Shown: positions 1,201-8,779 of the stretch, in pieces
How positions within the stretch are numbered: position 1 is the stretch's first letter
Layout of the letters: each line of letters opens with the position of its first letter
Program-made: the position numbers and the translations under genes
NCBI RefSeq assembly: GCF_011492945.1
Contig: NZ_CP045119.1
Coordinates: 806,001-870,000 of the forward strand
DNA from: Rubrobacter tropicus
GTDB lineage: Bacteria > Actinomycetota > Rubrobacteria > Rubrobacterales > Rubrobacteraceae
Length of the DNA stretch: 64,000 nt
Direction: 5' to 3'
The notes under the pieces: generated by a model
Databases searched by the model: none
What the model saw: the letters and a program-made list of their open reading frames with translations, nothing else
What the model was told of the DNA's origin: nothing

Positions 1201-2289
1201 GTGCGGCTTCGAAAAGGAAAAACTAAGACTACTCTTCAATCAGCAATCGACGCAGCGCTATTAGCTGTAGAGATCTACAACAAGCCAAGGACAACATTCA
1301 GGAGCGAAGCCTATATTGCAATGATGGTCATCGCATGGACAAGGCTCTTTCACGCACACTTCAACGTCACCATCGGGGACCGTTACTACTATAAAGATAA
1401 GAATGGCGCCAGGTATCAAAAAATTGACGGAGAAAAGAAAGCTTGGGAGCTCGCGACGTGTATGTCCGAGTATGGCAGTCTAAGTGAGCCAGTCACGAAG
1501 AACTTGCAATTCTTTATCAAGTTGCGCAATAAGATTGAACATCGCCACATCGATAAGAGAGAAGTTGACACCTTGATCTTCGGAGAGTGCCAAGCACTAC
1601 TCTACAATTTCGAGACTACGTTAATACAACTGTTTGGTAAGGAGTATGCACTCAACGAGGCCTTAGTCTATAGCCTTCAACTATCGCATCTGCGCACTTC
1701 CGAGCAAGAGGCAGCCAGCAAAGCGGCTTTATCTAAAGATCTGAAGAACATCGTTAACTATGTGAATCAATATCGTTCGACTCTTTCTGATGAAATATTT
1801 CAGTCACAAGAGTACAGTATTAGGCTGTTGCAGATCCCGAAAATTTCGAACACTAATCGGTCTGACCTAGCTGTAGAGTTCGTCCGTTGGGATAAGTTAT
1901 CTGAGGGAGATAGAGAGGCCTTCGAGAAGATCACCGCAATAATCAAAGACAAGAGCCTAAGATTAGAAGGCATCAATGTAGGCAAGCTCAAACCGAGCGA
2001 GGTAGTTGGTCGCGTTAAGAACGCGCTTCCAGCAACCAGTTTTACGATGCACACTCATACTTGTTTGCACCAATTGCTGGGTATAAGACCTGCACCCGAT
2101 GCCGATGACCCCTTCGACACTAACACAGCCTACTGTCATTATGACGAAGCACACGGTGACTATTTGTACCAAGACGAGTGGCCTGACCTGATTGTCGACT
2201 TACTGCAGTCAGGAAGGCTAGTAGTTGAAGATGTACATAACGCTAAACGAAATGGCGAACAGTGGGATATCAACGCGTACGTTGGTTGA
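1201..2289 (+). CDS. DUF3644 protein with HEPN-like RNxxxH motif
   Basis: 362 residues. The N-terminus (AIDAALLAVEIYNKP, then an aromatic-rich AWTRLFHAHF helix) matches my memory of the DUF3644 family, found sporadically in bacteria and phages. Residues 109-114 read RNKIEH, an exact RNxxxH motif of the HEPN ribonuclease superfamily, and a second His follows at 116. The C-terminal third is polar with YHYDEAHGDYLY-like aromatic spacing and may be a winged helix; its role is unknown. GTG start directly after an in-frame TAG at 1198; the GAGGTG before it is too close to be an ideal ribosome site, so a later start is possible. Base composition is clearly AT-rich against all neighbours, with codons such as TTA, ATA and AGA, so it is probably horizontally acquired. 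A nuclease or defence role is inference only. Confidence 0.8.
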   Translation: MRLRKGKTKTTLQSAIDAALLAVEIYNKPRTTFRSEAYIAMMVIAWTRLFHAHFNVTIGDRYYYKDKNGARYQKIDGEKKAWELATCMSEYGSLSEPVTKNLQFFIKLRNKIEHRHIDKREVDTLIFGECQALLYNFETTLIQLFGKEYALNEALVYSLQLSHLRTSEQEAASKAALSKDLKNIVNYVNQYRSTLSDEIFQSQEYSIRLLQIPKISNTNRSDLAVEFVRWDKLSEGDREAFEKITAIIKDKSLRLEGINVGKLKPSEVVGRVKNALPATSFTMHTHTCLHQLLGIRPAPDADDPFDTNTAYCHYDEAHGDYLYQDEWPDLIVDLLQSGRLVVEDVHNAKRNGEQWDINAYVG

Positions 2290-2374
2290 GGGCGTCTTCG
2301 TATCAAAAAATCTAGCCGTTCCACATAGATCAGAGCCTGGCGCTGTGCGACGGAATTCGCAACTTTCTGCGTGC

Positions 2375-2389
2375 TAGAATGCCGAACCA
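2375..2389 (+). promoter_or_regulatory. Extended -10 element for a leaderless carboxylase mRNA
   Basis: TGC-TAGAAT at 2372-2380 is an extended -10 box. Transcription about eight bases on would begin at the ATG at 2389, giving a leaderless message, and no Shine-Dalgarno precedes that ATG. The same TAGAAT-N8-ATG spacing is seen before the IclR gene at 23881. No good -35 box is visible. Confidence 0.5.
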
Positions 2390-3963
2390 TGCAGGGTGAG
2401 AGGCTTGGCGAGGACACGACCGCCGGAAAACTGGAGGGGCTCGAGAAGCTGCGCGAGCGTGCGGCCCATCCCGCCCCCGAGCAGGCCGTCGAGCGGCAGC
2501 GCGAGAAGGGCAAGCTCACGGCGCGCGAGCGGATCGATATCCTGCTCGACGAGGGGACCTTCGTCGAGCTGGACCGCTACAGGGTGCACCGCTCGAACAA
2601 TTTTGGGCTGGAGCAGAACAAGCCTTTAGGCGACGGGGTGGTTACCGGCTACGGTGAGGTGATGGGGCGGAAGGTCTGCGTCTTCTCGCAGGACTTCACG
2701 GTCTTCGGCGGTTCTCTGGGCGAGGTGTACGCCCAGAAGATCTGCAAGGTCATGGACCTGGCGCTCAGCACGGGATGCCCCATCGTCGGGATCAACGACT
2801 CGGGCGGGGCGAGGATTCAGGAGGGCGTCGTCTCTTTAGCCGGGTACGCCGACATCTTCCACAGGAACGTTCTGGCCTCCGGTGTTGTGCCCCAGATCTC
2901 GGTGGTCATGGGCCCTTGCGCCGGGGGGGCCGTCTACTCGCCGGCGATCACGGACTTCGTCTTCATGGTCGAGGGGACGAGCCACATGTTCATCACGGGC
3001 CCCGACGTCATAAAGAGCGTGACGGGCGAGGAGGTCACCCAGGAGGACCTCGGGGGGGCCGCCACCCACAACACCAAGAGCGGCGTCGCCCACTTCTCCT
3101 CCCCCGACGAGGAGACTTGCCTCGAAGACGTGCGGTTCCTCCTCTCGTTTCTACCGGAGAACAACCTCGAAACCGCCCCGTACTATCCGCCCGACGACGA
3201 CCCGGGACGGATGGAGGAGGAGCTCGCCTCGCTCGTGCCGGACTCGCCGCGCCAGCCCTACGACATAAGGGAGGCCGTCTCCCTGGTCGTCGACGACGGG
3301 GAGTTCTTCGAGGTGCAGGAGGGGTGGGCCCAGAACCTCGTGGTCGGGTTCGCCAGGATGGACGGCCACGCCATCGGCGTGGTCGGGAACCAGCCGATGG
3401 TGCTCGCGGGTACTTTAGATATAGACGCGAGCGTCAAGGGGGCGCGGTTCGTGAGGTTCTGCGACGCCTTCAACATCCCTCTGCTCACGTTCGTGGACGT
3501 GCCGGGGTTCATGCCCGGGACGGGGCAGGAGTGGGGTGGGATCATCCGCCACGGCGCCAAGCTTCTCTACGCCTTCTCCGAGGCCACGGTCCCCAAGATG
3601 ACCGTTATAACCAGAAAAGCCTACGGCGGCGCCTACGACGTCATGAACTCCAAGCACATAGGCGCCGATGTGAACGTCGCCTGGCCGACGGGCGAGGTCG
3701 CGGTGATGGGGGCCTCGGCGGCCGTCGGCATCATCCACCGCAGGCGCATCGCGGAGGCGGAGGACCCGGAGGCCGAGCGGGAGTCGCTCATCGCGGACTA
3801 CGAGGAGAAGTTCAACAACCCGATGGTGGCCGCCGAGATGGGTTTCATAGACGACATCATCGACCCGCGGGAGACGAGGCCCTACCTCGTAAAGGCCCTC
3901 TCGATGGTAAGGACCAGGCGCCCCGAGCGCCCGCCGCGCAAGCACGGGAACATCCCCCTCTGA
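2389..3963 (+). CDS. Acyl-CoA carboxylase carboxyltransferase (beta) subunit
   Basis: Transfers the carboxyl group from carboxybiotin to acetyl-, propionyl- or another acyl-CoA. 524 residues from ATG 2389, normal for the actinobacterial PccB/AccD family. Two crotonase-type carboxyltransferase halves are visible: the first holds SGGARIQEG near residue 140 and [11 protein letters not shown] near 175; the second holds [20 protein letters not shown] and [15 protein letters not shown] near 410. An in-frame GTG at 2371 would add six residues but lies upstream of the likely transcription start. The operon continues with a membrane protein, the epsilon subunit and the biotin-carrying alpha subunit. 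Acetyl- versus propionyl-CoA preference is not resolvable here. Confidence 0.95.
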
Positions 3964-3968
3964 GCACC

Positions 3969-4526
3969 ATGGTCGCAAGGGGCGCCACCGCTCTACGCAG
4001 GCTCTGGCCGAGGACGCGCCGGGGCCGGGTTCTCGCGGCGGTCTGCGTGCTGGTCTTCTTCGTCCTCAACGTGCTCGTGCTGCGGGGATCGGAGCTCGCG
4101 CTGGACCTCTTGATCTTCCTCTCGGGCATGGTCGTTGGCTTCATCGCGGCCCGCCTAGCGACGTACCCTTTCAGGAAGATCGGCGGCCCCGGCATCGAGA
4201 GGACCGTCGGGCTCTTCGTGGGGTTGGCCCTGGTATTCGTGATCATCTTCGGCGGCACGGCGCTCGCCGGCATCCCGCCGTATCCGACCGCCGAAGGCGG
4301 CAACGTTGGCAACATGATCTACGGTCTCGCCCTCGGGTTTCTCGTCGGCCTGCCCGGCGGCCTGGTCTCGGACGAGGCCGGATCCCACCTGCCCCTGCCG
4401 GGCTCGAACCTCAAGGTGGTAGCCGTGATCCTGGGAACCGTCGCCGCGTTGTTCGGGCTTCTCTTCGTGCTCTTCCTGCTGCTCGAGTACGCGCTCGTGC
4501 CCCTGATCCGGGCGTTCGCGGGATGA
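3969..4526 (+). CDS. Small integral membrane protein inside the carboxylase operon
   Basis: 185 residues starting at an ATG five bases after the beta-subunit stop. A basic N-terminus (RRLWPRTRRGR) is followed by about five hydrophobic segments: near residues 20-38, 40-60, 75-97, 112-128 and 145-175. No family is recognised and there are no catalytic motifs. The stop overlaps the start of the epsilon subunit (ATGA), so it is translated with the carboxylase subunits. Whether it anchors the complex at the membrane or is only co-transcribed cannot be told. Confidence 0.75.
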   Translation: MVARGATALRRLWPRTRRGRVLAAVCVLVFFVLNVLVLRGSELALDLLIFLSGMVVGFIAARLATYPFRKIGGPGIERTVGLFVGLALVFVIIFGGTALAGIPPYPTAEGGNVGNMIYGLALGFLVGLPGGLVSDEAGSHLPLPGSNLKVVAVILGTVAALFGLLFVLFLLLEYALVPLIRAFAG

Positions 4527-4744
4527 CCGGCGCGCGGCGGACCAGGATAGACCCCCCGCCGTCGCCGGAGGAGGCCGCGGCGATCGTGGCCGCGCTGGGG
4601 GTGCTGCGGGAGGAGAGCCCCGAGGCCGGGGTTCCGGCCAGGAGCCGGTGGAGGTTGGCGGGGTTGCTCGGGCACCCCGTGCCGCCCGGGATGGGGCTCG
4701 ACGGGTCGTTGTGGTCTTACTCCAGTTGGGAGGGTGGTTTCTAG
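4523..4744 (+). CDS. Acyl-CoA carboxylase epsilon subunit
   Basis: 73-residue protein of the actinobacterial ACC-epsilon family. The conserved middle, PSPEEAAAIVAALGVL, and the late SRWRLAGL stretch match this family, which stabilises the alpha-beta carboxylase complex. The ATG overlaps the preceding stop by four bases, and the alpha-subunit GTG follows directly on its TAG. Position between beta and alpha supports the call. Confidence 0.8.
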   Translation: MTGARRTRIDPPPSPEEAAAIVAALGVLREESPEAGVPARSRWRLAGLLGHPVPPGMGLDGSLWSYSSWEGGF

Positions 4745-6481
4745 GTGTTCGGGAAGATCCTTATCGCGAACAGGGGTGAGATCTCCGTCCGCATAGCCCG
4801 CGCCTGCCGGGAGTTGGGCATCGCGAGCGTCGCCGTCTACTCGGACATAGACAGGGGCGCCCTCCACACGGTCGTCGCAGACGAGGCCTACCATATAGGT
4901 CCAACACCTGCCACCGAGAGCTACCTGAACATCGAGAAGTTGATCGAGGTGGCGAAAGAGAGCGGCGCCGAGGCCGTCCACCCGGGGTATGGCTTTCTGG
5001 CCGAGAGCGCGCCTTTCGCGAGGGCCGTGACGGAAGCCGGGCTCGTCTGGATCGGGCCCCACCCCGAAGCAATAGTGGCGATGGGCTCGAAGGTCGAGTC
5101 GAGGCGCATCATGGCGGCTGCGGGCGTCCCGATCACACCGGGCACCGAAGGCCCCGTCGATTCACCCGACGCCGTCCTGGAGTTCGCCGCTGAGCACGGC
5201 TTTCCGGTCGCCGTGAAGGCGTCGGCCGGCGGGGGCGGCAAGGGCTTCGCGGTCGCCAACGACAAGACCGAGGCCGAGGCGGCCTACTCGCGGGCTTCCC
5301 GGGAGGGCGAGGCTTACTTCGGGGACGGGTCGGTGTACCTGGAGAAGTACTTGCCGGCGCCCAGGCACGTCGAGATCCAGGTCTTCCGAGACAAGCACGG
5401 CAACGCCGTCCACCTCGGCGAACGCGACTGCTCTATCCAGCGCCGCCACCAGAAGCTCGTCGAGGAATGCCCGAGCCCGGCCCTCGACCCCGAAACCCGC
5501 GACGCGATGGGCCGCGCGGCCGTCGCCGCCGCCGACGCCGTGGGCTACGACTCGGCCGGCACCGTCGAGTTCCTGCTTCAGGACGACGATTTCTTTTTCC
5601 TCGAGATGAACACGAGGGTCCAGGTCGAGCACCCCGTAACGGAGGAGGTCACGGGCGTGGACGTCGTCCAGACCGGCATCCGCCTCGCCGCCGGGGAGCC
5701 GATGCCGATAAGCCAGGAGGAGGTCTCCTGGCGGGGCCACGCCATCGAGGTCCGCGTCAACGCCGAGGACGCCGCGCGCGACTTCGTCCCGAGCCCCGGC
5801 GCCGTTACCGCCTACGGGGAGCCCGGTGGGCCCGGGGTGCGGGTAGACTCGTCGCTGCGGGGGCCGGGGTCCGTGCCCGAGTCCTACGATCCGCTCTTCG
5901 CCAAGCTGATCGTGCGCGCTTCGGACCGCGGGGCGGCCCTCGCCCGGCTGCGGCGCGCGCTCTCCGAGTTCCGCGTCGAAGGTATTGCGACGACGCTGCC
6001 GTTCTTCCGCGCTATCCTGGACGACGAGGTCTTCGTCTCCGGCGACTACACGACGGGCTTCGTGGCGGAGAGAATGGAGGGCCTCGTCATAGAAGCCACC
6101 CAGCCGGCCGGCGGGGCGGCGGAGGACGAGAAGGCGCCGCGCGAGGTGGAGGTCGAGGTAAACGGCAGGCTTTTCAGGGTTCGGGTCTTCGGCGACGAGG
6201 CCGGGGCGGGCGGCCGGGCAACCCCGCCGCGGCGCAGCGGGAGGACGACGCGGCGGGCGGCGGGCGGCGAGGGGGCCGTCGCCTCCCCGATGCAGGGGAC
6301 CATAGTGAAGGTGCTCGTCGAGGAGGGCCAGGAGGTCGCCGCGGACGAGGCCGTCTGCGTGCTCGAGGCCATGAAGATGGAGAGCGAGGTCAGGGCGCAG
6401 AAGGCCGGCCGCGTCTCCGAGGTACTCGTCGAGGCCGGCAAGACCGTCCGCTCCGGCGAGCCTTTGGTCGTCCTGGAATAG
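4745..6481 (+). CDS. Acyl-CoA carboxylase alpha subunit (biotin carboxylase + BCCP)
   Basis: ATP-dependent carboxylation of biotin, plus the carrier domain. 578 residues, the normal size for AccA3/PccA-type proteins. The N-terminal biotin-carboxylase domain opens with KILIANRGEISVRI; the ATP-grasp glycine loop GGGGKGF lies near residue 162, and EMNTRVQVEHPVTE near 290. A Gly/Arg-rich linker near 490-515 precedes the biotinyl domain, whose EAMKME places the biotinylated lysine at residue 544. Start: GTG right after the epsilon stop, with GGGAGGGTGG upstream. Last clear carboxylase gene of the operon. Confidence 0.96.
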   Translation: MFGKILIANRGEISVRIARACRELGIASVAVYSDIDRGALHTVVADEAYHIGPTPATESYLNIEKLIEVAKESGAEAVHPGYGFLAESAPFARAVTEAGLVWIGPHPEAIVAMGSKVESRRIMAAAGVPITPGTEGPVDSPDAVLEFAAEHGFPVAVKASAGGGGKGFAVANDKTEAEAAYSRASREGEAYFGDGSVYLEKYLPAPRHVEIQVFRDKHGNAVHLGERDCSIQRRHQKLVEECPSPALDPETRDAMGRAAVAAADAVGYDSAGTVEFLLQDDDFFFLEMNTRVQVEHPVTEEVTGVDVVQTGIRLAAGEPMPISQEEVSWRGHAIEVRVNAEDAARDFVPSPGAVTAYGEPGGPGVRVDSSLRGPGSVPESYDPLFAKLIVRASDRGAALARLRRALSEFRVEGIATTLPFFRAILDDEVFVSGDYTTGFVAERMEGLVIEATQPAGGAAEDEKAPREVEVEVNGRLFRVRVFGDEAGAGGRATPPRRSGRTTRRAAGGEGAVASPMQGTIVKVLVEEGQEVAADEAVCVLEAMKMESEVRAQKAGRVSEVLVEAGKTVRSGEPLVVLE

Positions 6482-6493
6482 GACCGGGACGCC

Positions 6494-7594
6494 GTGGTGG
6501 AGCAGGCAGAGGAGTACGGGTGGAGCGGCGAGGGCGAGGGGGCCGAGATCCTCGTCTACGCCCCCGACGAAGAGACGGCCGAGAGGGCATTCCAACGAGC
6601 CCTACCTGCCGCCCTCCTCCCCAACGTCCAGAGCCCCGTCTTCGCCGCGGCCTCCGGGAACGATGTCGGTTACGTCGCCGCCTCGACGACGCATGTGGCC
6701 CCTGACCTGATCTCACCCCCATCCCGCAACCTCTTCCTGGTCGCCGACGCGACCGCCGAAAACCTCGGGATGCCCCCCCGAGACGTGCGCGACTTCGTCC
6801 TGCGCGGCCTCGCGGAAGCGGGGCCATCGCTGCCATCGCCGAACGAGGCCGGGATACGGAGGTTCTGCGAAGCGGGGGCGGCCGCGGCGGCCGAAGACGG
6901 CCTTATCGAGGAAGAAGATTTGGCATACCTCGCCCCCGTCGAGGGCGACCCGGACGCGCTCGGGCGGCGGGCGCTATCCGCCGGCGCGCGGGACTGGGAA
7001 GGCCGGTTCGGGCTCGACGTGGCCGTGGTCGGAGAGGTGCTAGACACGGACGGGGCCGAGACACTCGATCTCCGAGCAGGGATGCTCGCGCTCGTGGTCC
7101 GGGTTGGCGGCGGGGACCTCGGGCGGCTCGCGGTGTCCCTTCACCGGGACCGGATCTTCACCCGCATAAGGGCCGGCACGGACCTCGGCGCCGGAGACGA
7201 CCTTCCCGCCGCGCCCGAGGGTTCCGAGGAGGCCTCCGACCTCCAGGCCGCCGTCCGGGCCGCCTCGAACCTCGCCGACGCCAGGGCCGCCGGGGCCGTG
7301 TACGCCCTGCGGCGGGTTCTACGGGATCTTGCCGGCGGCCTGGACCCGCGCGCCTCGTGGAAGGTCGGCGGCGTGGAGGCGCGCGACGGGTTCCTGGCCC
7401 ACCGCAAGGACCTCGCCTCGGCGGGGGAGGGGGAGGCGCTGATCTCGGGTGGTATCGTGGTGGCCGGGACGGGTAATATGTGGCGGAGCGCGCCCCCGTT
7501 CGGCGCGCCCGGGGACGAAGGCCGCTGGCCCTGGGAAGAGGCGGGCCTGCTGGGCCGGTGGGCGGTCCTCGATCCAACCGGAGGAGAGAGCTAG
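6494..7594 (+). CDS. Degenerate RtcB-like protein, catalytic residues lost
   Basis: 366 residues; RtcB RNA ligases are about 480. No close family is certain, but many short stretches line up in order with RtcB as I remember it: an AERAFQRALPAALLPNV helix, VAPDLISPPSRN where RtcB has a VxSPGGVGYD-type motif, EEEDLAYLAP, DALGRRALSAG, AETLDLRAGM followed by GGGDLGR where RtcB has GSRGLGH, and AHRKD near residue 303 where RtcB has VHRKGA. The metal-binding Cys and His positions are replaced (DINCG gives LVADA; the GNH and RGLGH histidines are gone) and the catalytic C-terminus is absent. If homologous it is a pseudoenzyme, perhaps structural or RNA-binding. GTG start; co-directional with the carboxylase operon. 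Confidence 0.6.
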   Translation: MVEQAEEYGWSGEGEGAEILVYAPDEETAERAFQRALPAALLPNVQSPVFAAASGNDVGYVAASTTHVAPDLISPPSRNLFLVADATAENLGMPPRDVRDFVLRGLAEAGPSLPSPNEAGIRRFCEAGAAAAAEDGLIEEEDLAYLAPVEGDPDALGRRALSAGARDWEGRFGLDVAVVGEVLDTDGAETLDLRAGMLALVVRVGGGDLGRLAVSLHRDRIFTRIRAGTDLGAGDDLPAAPEGSEEASDLQAAVRAASNLADARAAGAVYALRRVLRDLAGGLDPRASWKVGGVEARDGFLAHRKDLASAGEGEALISGGIVVAGTGNMWRSAPPFGAPGDEGRWPWEEAGLLGRWAVLDPTGGES

Positions 7595-7596
7595 CG

Positions 7597-7875
7597 TTGG
7601 ACTTGCTGATGGTCAGGGACCGGGCGACGGGCCGGTTCCTGTACGCCGAGCGCCTGGAGCGCCGCCAGGGGGAAACCTCCTGGGAGTACGTCCGCCGCAG
7701 CGTCCGCCGGGAAGCCCACATCCGGGACCGCTTCTCGTCCGAGACCCAGCAGGTAATAATGGGCTGGGGAGCAGGCTCCGTCGAAGACTTCCTGAAGTCC
7801 TACCCCGAATACGGCCCGACCGACGGCGAGGCCGATGGCAGATCCGAACCCGAAGGAGAGACTATTGACCGCTGA
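7597..7875 (+). CDS. Small hypothetical protein
   Basis: 92 residues, acidic C-terminus, no recognised family. TTG start two bases after the preceding TAG, with GGAGGAGAGAG as ribosome site; longer upstream starts would run inside the RtcB-like gene in another frame and are less likely. Its sequence (ATGRFLYAERLERRQGETSW, then EDFLKSYPEYGP) has neither signal peptide nor membrane segment. It overlaps the next gene by 11 bases, so the two are probably translationally coupled. Confidence 0.6.
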   Translation: MDLLMVRDRATGRFLYAERLERRQGETSWEYVRRSVRREAHIRDRFSSETQQVIMGWGAGSVEDFLKSYPEYGPTDGEADGRSEPEGETIDR

Positions 7876-8272: not shown

Positions 8273-8779
8273 CTACTTAAAATCTTCCGGCGAGACGCGG
8301 TTCATCCAGTCCTTGAACTTGTCGACGACCTCGTCTTCTGGGGCGTCCTCCATCGCTTCTGCCTCTTCGAACTCGACGCCGGCCTCCTGGATGACCTCGT
8401 CGGAGGCGAAGATCTCGGCTCCGGAGCGGATGGCTAGCGCTATGGCGTCTGACGGGCGGGAGTCTACTTCCACGGTCTTGCCGTCTATGTCCAGGCGGAT
8501 GGTGGCGAAGAAGGTCTGGTCCCTGAGGGCGGTGACCGTGATCCTCTCCATAGAGGCGCCGAGCTCGTTGACGAGGTTCAGGGCCAGATCGTGGGTAAGG
8601 GGGCGGACGAATTCCTGGTTCTGGAGCTTCATGAGGATCGAACGGGCCTCGGGCTGGCCGATCCAGATGGGCAAATAGCGGTTCTCGTCCTCCACCTTGA
8701 GGATGACGATCGGGCTAGAGGAAAAGAGGTCCATGTTCATGCCGTAGATGGACATCTTGGTGAAGCCGTCGGCGCTCAC
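8273..8779 (-). CDS. Bifunctional nuclease family protein (BFN/DUF151)
   Basis: 168 residues. The BFN domain is clear: VILKVEDENRYLPIWIGQPEA, the central LTHDLALNLVNELGA, and VDSRPSDAIALAIRSGAEIFA. Homologues such as the Thermotoga structural model have been proposed to be DNases/RNases, and the family is near-universal in actinobacteria. The C-terminal 35 residues are very acidic (EFEEAEAMEDAPEDEVVD). GTG start with GAGAGGAG ten bases ahead; the ATG nine codons on is the alternative. It is a single-gene unit ending in an intrinsic terminator. Confidence 0.93.
   Translation of the reverse strand: MSADGFTKMSIYGMNMDLFSSSPIVILKVEDENRYLPIWIGQPEARSILMKLQNQEFVRPLTHDLALNLVNELGASMERITVTALRDQTFFATIRLDIDGKTVEVDSRPSDAIALAIRSGAEIFASDEVIQEAGVEFEEAEAMEDAPEDEVVDKFKDWMNRVSPEDFK

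Follow-up and report, generated by a model that had tools for sequence, protein, structure and literature searches.

Gene organization of the locus

The window analysed here, a stretch of 64,000 nucleotides of Rubrobacter tropicus DNA, contains two acyl-CoA carboxylase genes and, on the same strand, a gene (X) for a protein of predicted RtcB fold. The ORF check of the window showed X to be open over 366 codons, from its GTG start to the stop at 7592-7594, and to begin 12 bp 3' of the stop of the biotin carboxylase/BCCP gene. An intact co-directional gene, as described in an earlier note on this DNA, is thus present at these positions. The features of the locus are listed below, with the segments of X set against the RtcB motifs to which they correspond.

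2371-3963 (+): acyl-CoA carboxylase carboxyltransferase subunit (PF01039, E 4e-200)
4745-6481 (+): biotin carboxylase fused to BCCP
6494-7594 (+): gene X, protein of predicted RtcB fold without the ligase residues, 366 aa, pI 4.4, charge about -27
6704-6730 (+): DLISPPSRN (X residues 71-79), the RtcB SPGGVGFDINCG region; DINCG metal-ligand loop (Asp95, Cys98) deleted
7100-7126 (+): RVGGGDLGR (X residues 203-211), RtcB HSGSRGLGH; His234 replaced by a variable residue, Arg238 by Gly
7358-7372 (+): WKVGG (X residues 289-293), RtcB YD(xxH)NxAK; His329 ligand deleted
7400-7411 (+): HRKD (X residues 303-306), RtcB HRKG; HR retained, Lys variable
7529-7579 (+): PWEEAGLLGRWAVLDPT (X residues 346-362), probable counterpart of the last RtcB strand, weak by sequence; preceding His404 segment missing
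7597-7875 (+): gene Y, small conserved protein whose TTG start directly follows the X stop
8273-8779 (-): gene Z, convergent with X, for a protein with a bifunctional nuclease domain (PF02577)

The usual order in Rubrobacteraceae is LeuDH (minus strand), carboxyltransferase, biotin carboxylase, X, Y and Z (minus strand), where LeuDH stands for a gene that, from its sequence, we take to be leucine dehydrogenase-like. In the window, the carboxylase genes are adjoined, at the place where many relatives carry this gene, by one for a DUF3644 protein (1201-2289, plus strand) that strongly matches the PADLOC candidate defence family PDC-S19 (E 8e-151). Among the genomes sampled, gene Y was confined to Rubrobacteraceae; it has 31 invariant columns, its fold is predicted with confidence as E-E-H-E-H, and it had no significant match in Pfam, PDB sequences or Foldseek.

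Homology to RtcB and loss of the ligase residues

Taken as a single sequence, X had one match in Pfam, RtcB (PF01139, E 0.012), at 15.3 bits against a gathering threshold of 27 bits, and so lies outside the curated family by this measure, which is why automatic annotation has missed it. Three of its relatives score above the threshold (28-37 bits), and phmmer with X alone against the PDB gave weak matches to RtcB chains (E about 4e-4). The relationship became clear with an alignment of 25 full-length Rubrobacteraceae sequences, X included, that are 43-80% identical to X. The profile built from it matched the RtcBs of Thermus (E 3.5e-18) and P. horikoshii (6e-18) among PDB chains and no other family, the next match having E 0.16. 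PF01139 was matched by 22 of the 25 members (best E 3e-9), and hhalign of the profile against 23 actinobacterial RtcBs gave a probability of 99.8% and E 1.8e-27 over X residues 1-366.

The AlphaFold2 model obtained from the family alignment (mean pLDDT 93.3, pTM 0.91) pointed in the same direction. At E <= 0.001 Foldseek matched it to RtcB chains of the PDB only, 16 in number (best E 2.5e-21, with a TM of 0.83 by query length), and the first match of another kind came at E 0.43; among viral structure models there were just two matches, both RtcB-type ligases. Judged by sequence profiles and the predicted model, X is homologous to RtcB and belongs to the RtcB superfamily by descent. The earlier note had proposed this by eye from the order of the motifs; profile-profile search and structure prediction now confirm the homology and bring out no better family. 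All the equivalences that it had picked were recovered by profile-profile alignment: DLISPPSRN aligns to RtcB VISPGGVG, EEEDL to E-DL, DALGRRALSAG to DPxxVSxRAxxRG, AETLDLRAG to AxxFGLxxGQ, GGGDLGR to GSRGLGH and AHRKD to VHRKG.

In RtcB of P. horikoshii, one Mn ion is bound by Cys98, His234 and His329 and the other by Asp95, Cys98 and His203, and the guanylylated residue is His404 (PMC10630183). We mapped these and other residues in the numbering of the L071 RtcB (P. horikoshii numbers in round brackets). D64 is replaced by Ser or Ala in the X family, and Asp95 and Cys98 are deleted together with their loop. N203/H204 (N202/H203) are deleted or variable, H235 (H234) is Arg, Gly, Asp, Ser, Trp or Glu across the family, and R239 (R238) has become Gly. 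The stretch with H325 (H329) is deleted, K343 (the Lys of HRKG) is variable, and the segment of H396 (H404) has no counterpart. A motif like HGAGR was not found in any of the 25 members. In all of them the Mn/Zn ligands Asp95, Cys98, His203, His234 and His329 are deleted or variable, and those old catalytic positions that survive are among the less conserved ones of X. What X retains are structural Gly and Pro residues and the HR of HRKG, with W for an invariant Tyr and GG for an invariant AK; these residues (W289, G292 and G293) are invariant in 25 of 25 X sequences. The claim that the metal and guanylation residues had been replaced is therefore borne out. Since the positions of the metal ligands and of the guanylated His are deleted or freely variable, X, as far as its sequence tells, cannot carry out ligation in the manner of RtcB.

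It had also been stated that the C-terminal catalytic part was absent. This holds for the guanylated-His segment and the helices that follow it, which are without counterpart, but not for the last RtcB strand, which is probably present: the Foldseek alignment of the model covers the entire RtcB chain, and PWEEAGLLxRxAxLxP of X aligns, weakly (E 0.0037, probability 9%), with xxxAGLxxxVARLRP at the RtcB C-terminus. Because X probably ends with this strand, the guanylation segment was probably lost from the inside and not by plain truncation.

Distribution, selection and descent

Of 39 Rubrobacteraceae genomes, 34 carried X, and it was missing from all 358 genomes sampled from other Actinomycetota. 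When 84,980 species were scanned with family patterns, a method of incomplete sensitivity, the only matches were in Rubrobacteraceae and in actinobacterial bins. Of the five genomes without X, three (G029, G034 and G036) have a contig that ends at or shortly before the expected position and one (G025) is an assembly 60% complete; in these four, X may have escaped assembly, whereas from G018 it has truly been lost.

The open frame was intact in all 25 aligned full-length members, which come from about a dozen genera, and dN/dS was 0.16-0.35 in nine pairs. In one genome pair the values were 0.28 for X, 0.08 for the carboxyltransferase and 0.18 for the biotin carboxylase; X evolves faster than its neighbours, yet it is under clear purifying selection. 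In the complete genome of Rubrobacter marinus (NZ_CP045121, L059), X and the carboxyltransferase gene are both split between frames, which suggests sequencing errors.

In the phylogenetic tree the X sequences formed one monophyletic group whose branch measured about 2.3 substitutions per site; the group fell outside the clade of Rubrobacteraceae RtcBs, although the position of its root is unsure owing to long-branch effects. We consequently rejected a recent duplication of Rubrobacter RtcB as its origin. X is an ancient and stable family specific to Rubrobacteraceae. The survey of related genomes thus sustains what had been supposed about conservation and selection, with dN/dS well under 1, and the absence of the catalytic motifs from a gene kept intact in most of these genomes agrees with the proposal of a new pseudoenzyme. 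The description of X as a decayed copy is right as to the loss of the ligase residues; it is not right as to the state and origin of the gene, a stable monophyletic family being neither decaying nor a recent copy.

The presence of X does not follow that of RtcB. Five nearly complete genomes that bear X are without RtcB (G011, G012, G023, G024 and G030), and archease was not found in the genome of the window nor in the searched genomes of its genus. Since X occurs where RtcB or archease is missing, it is not simply an RtcB regulator, and its candidacy as a partner of either protein is weakened. In a wider view of the family, RtcB loss was patchy, with no full RtcB match in G006, G007, G011, G012, G013, G022, G023, G024, G026 and G030.

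Possible function of X

The charge of the X family ranges from -15 to -38, against -6 to +5 in RtcB. A change of charge from near 0 to near -27 argues against the binding of RNA, but the argument is weakened by the neighbouring carboxyltransferase, biotin carboxylase and Z, which with a pI of about 4.3-5 are acidic as well. With identities down to 43%, the 25 sequences share 32 fully invariant positions, many of them polar, including E18, R104, E140, R159, D184, H217, R220, E246, D249, R274, W289, G292-G293, R304 and W347-E348. These do not mark the old active site: 8 of 29 invariants lie in the vicinity of the old motifs, which is no enrichment (P 0.17), and conservation in X tracks that in RtcB weakly (Spearman 0.17). 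The possibility of a re-tooled old active site was rejected on these grounds.

The explanation that we favour, with moderate confidence, is that X is an ancient offshoot of RtcB, specific to Rubrobacteraceae, that kept the fold, had the ligase machinery removed and was repurposed as a binding or scaffold protein. Given the free variation of the old catalytic positions and the strong acidity compared with a nearly neutral RtcB, X would most likely have left nucleic acid substrates and would instead bind a partner, be it a protein or a small molecule, for which it would serve as a scaffold or regulator. Contact with this partner could take place through the surfaces that the invariant residues mark.

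X most likely serves as a scaffold or regulator, and the main rival to this reading is a new catalytic role. In the latter case the RtcB scaffold would carry a different active site made up of family-specific invariants (for example H217/R220, D249, R274, H303/R304 and W347/E348). The many polar invariants, with His, Arg, Asp and Glu among them, would suit such a site, and pseudoenzymes of other folds, SelO and SidJ, were later shown to have alternative activities (PMC10211241). Nevertheless, X lacks a cluster of residues resembling metal ligands, since its well-conserved columns hold His only at H67, H217 and H303 and Cys only at C125, dispersed along the chain, and the invariants are not concentrated at the old site. 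We regard a new enzyme as possible but rather unlikely.

An action on RNA is improbable. By analogy with the RtcAB-RtcR CARF system, X might be a non-catalytic binder of RNA ends or a regulator of RNA repair, for which there is a precedent in the binding of RtcAB to the CARF domain of RtcR independently of catalysis (PMC9650030). The RtcB fold, the retained HR of HRKG and the nuclease domain of the convergent neighbour Z would fit this possibility. Against it are the loss of Arg238 and of the HRKG Lys, the strong acidity, and the existence of X in genomes without RtcB or archease.

A role as accessory or regulatory subunit of the upstream acyl-CoA carboxylase is suggested by the order carboxyltransferase, biotin carboxylase, X, which is kept in most Rubrobacteraceae, and by the 12 bp gap seen in the window. 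However, in G009 and G021, which belong to one genus, the locus reads LeuDH (minus strand), X and Z (minus strand), the two carboxylase genes and Y having gone from it without a close match elsewhere in these genomes, which gave no carboxyltransferase or biotin carboxylase match at 1e-150 and 1e-100; X has stayed there with a dN/dS of 0.26 between the two. Conversely, G018 retains LeuDH (minus strand), carboxyltransferase, biotin carboxylase, Y and Z (minus strand) and has 123 bp in place of X, without any relic detectable by six-frame profile search. Because X and the carboxylase were lost independently, X probably does not belong to the carboxylase as a subunit, and we hold this role to be very doubtful. 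The placing of X in a carboxylase operon is accordingly correct by position and probably not by function.

That X is a decaying RtcB pseudogene carried along in the operon, as its faster change compared with the carboxyltransferase and its one clean loss might suggest, is refuted for practical purposes by a dN/dS well under 1 in every pair, by frames open in all 25 members and by its retention after the loss of the operon.

RtcB is an isolated fold with an unusual mechanism and, to our knowledge, the only roles described for it are those of a ligase and a capping enzyme, in agreement with the open literature searched; a search of 5.4 million open-licence papers brought up none that deals with RtcB pseudoenzymes or with the RtcB of Rubrobacter. 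The chances seem about even that X represents the first family of RtcB pseudoenzymes, a core component of Rubrobacteraceae that has left RNA ligation for a new role, be it an activity or the sensing of a ligand, and that is kept where RtcB and the carboxylase have been lost. A stable, lineage-wide family from which the chemistry has been removed means that the RtcB fold lends itself to other uses. X is also a natural control that separates the RtcB positions needed for folding from those needed for catalysis, and a role for it would explain what one of the core genes of this radiation-resistant bacterial family does.

With the RtcB ligases (PF01139; P. horikoshii PH1602, Thermus TTHA1785 and human RTCB), X has in common ancestry along the whole chain, the fold and the order of strands and helices, but it is about 100 residues shorter and strongly acidic. 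The bacterial paralogs RtcB1-3 of Myxococcus and RtcB2 of the RtcB2-PrfH operon are, like X, additional and divergent proteins of the RtcB family; as far as is known, they keep the catalytic residues and perform ligation or capping, whereas X has none of these residues. Likewise, the second RtcB-family protein of the window's genome (G000:C1:3570930-3571976) scores 278 bits to PF01139 and, unlike X, retains GSGNHF, HSGSRG, NHHN, HRKG and HGAGR; X did not group in the tree with L087, a close relative of this protein. The genome's own RtcB-family gene in L032 (about 3400-4777, minus strand, G000:C1), which compared with its L087 relative shows an apparent frame shift near the C-terminus, due either to a sequencing error or to real damage, has kept the ligase motifs.
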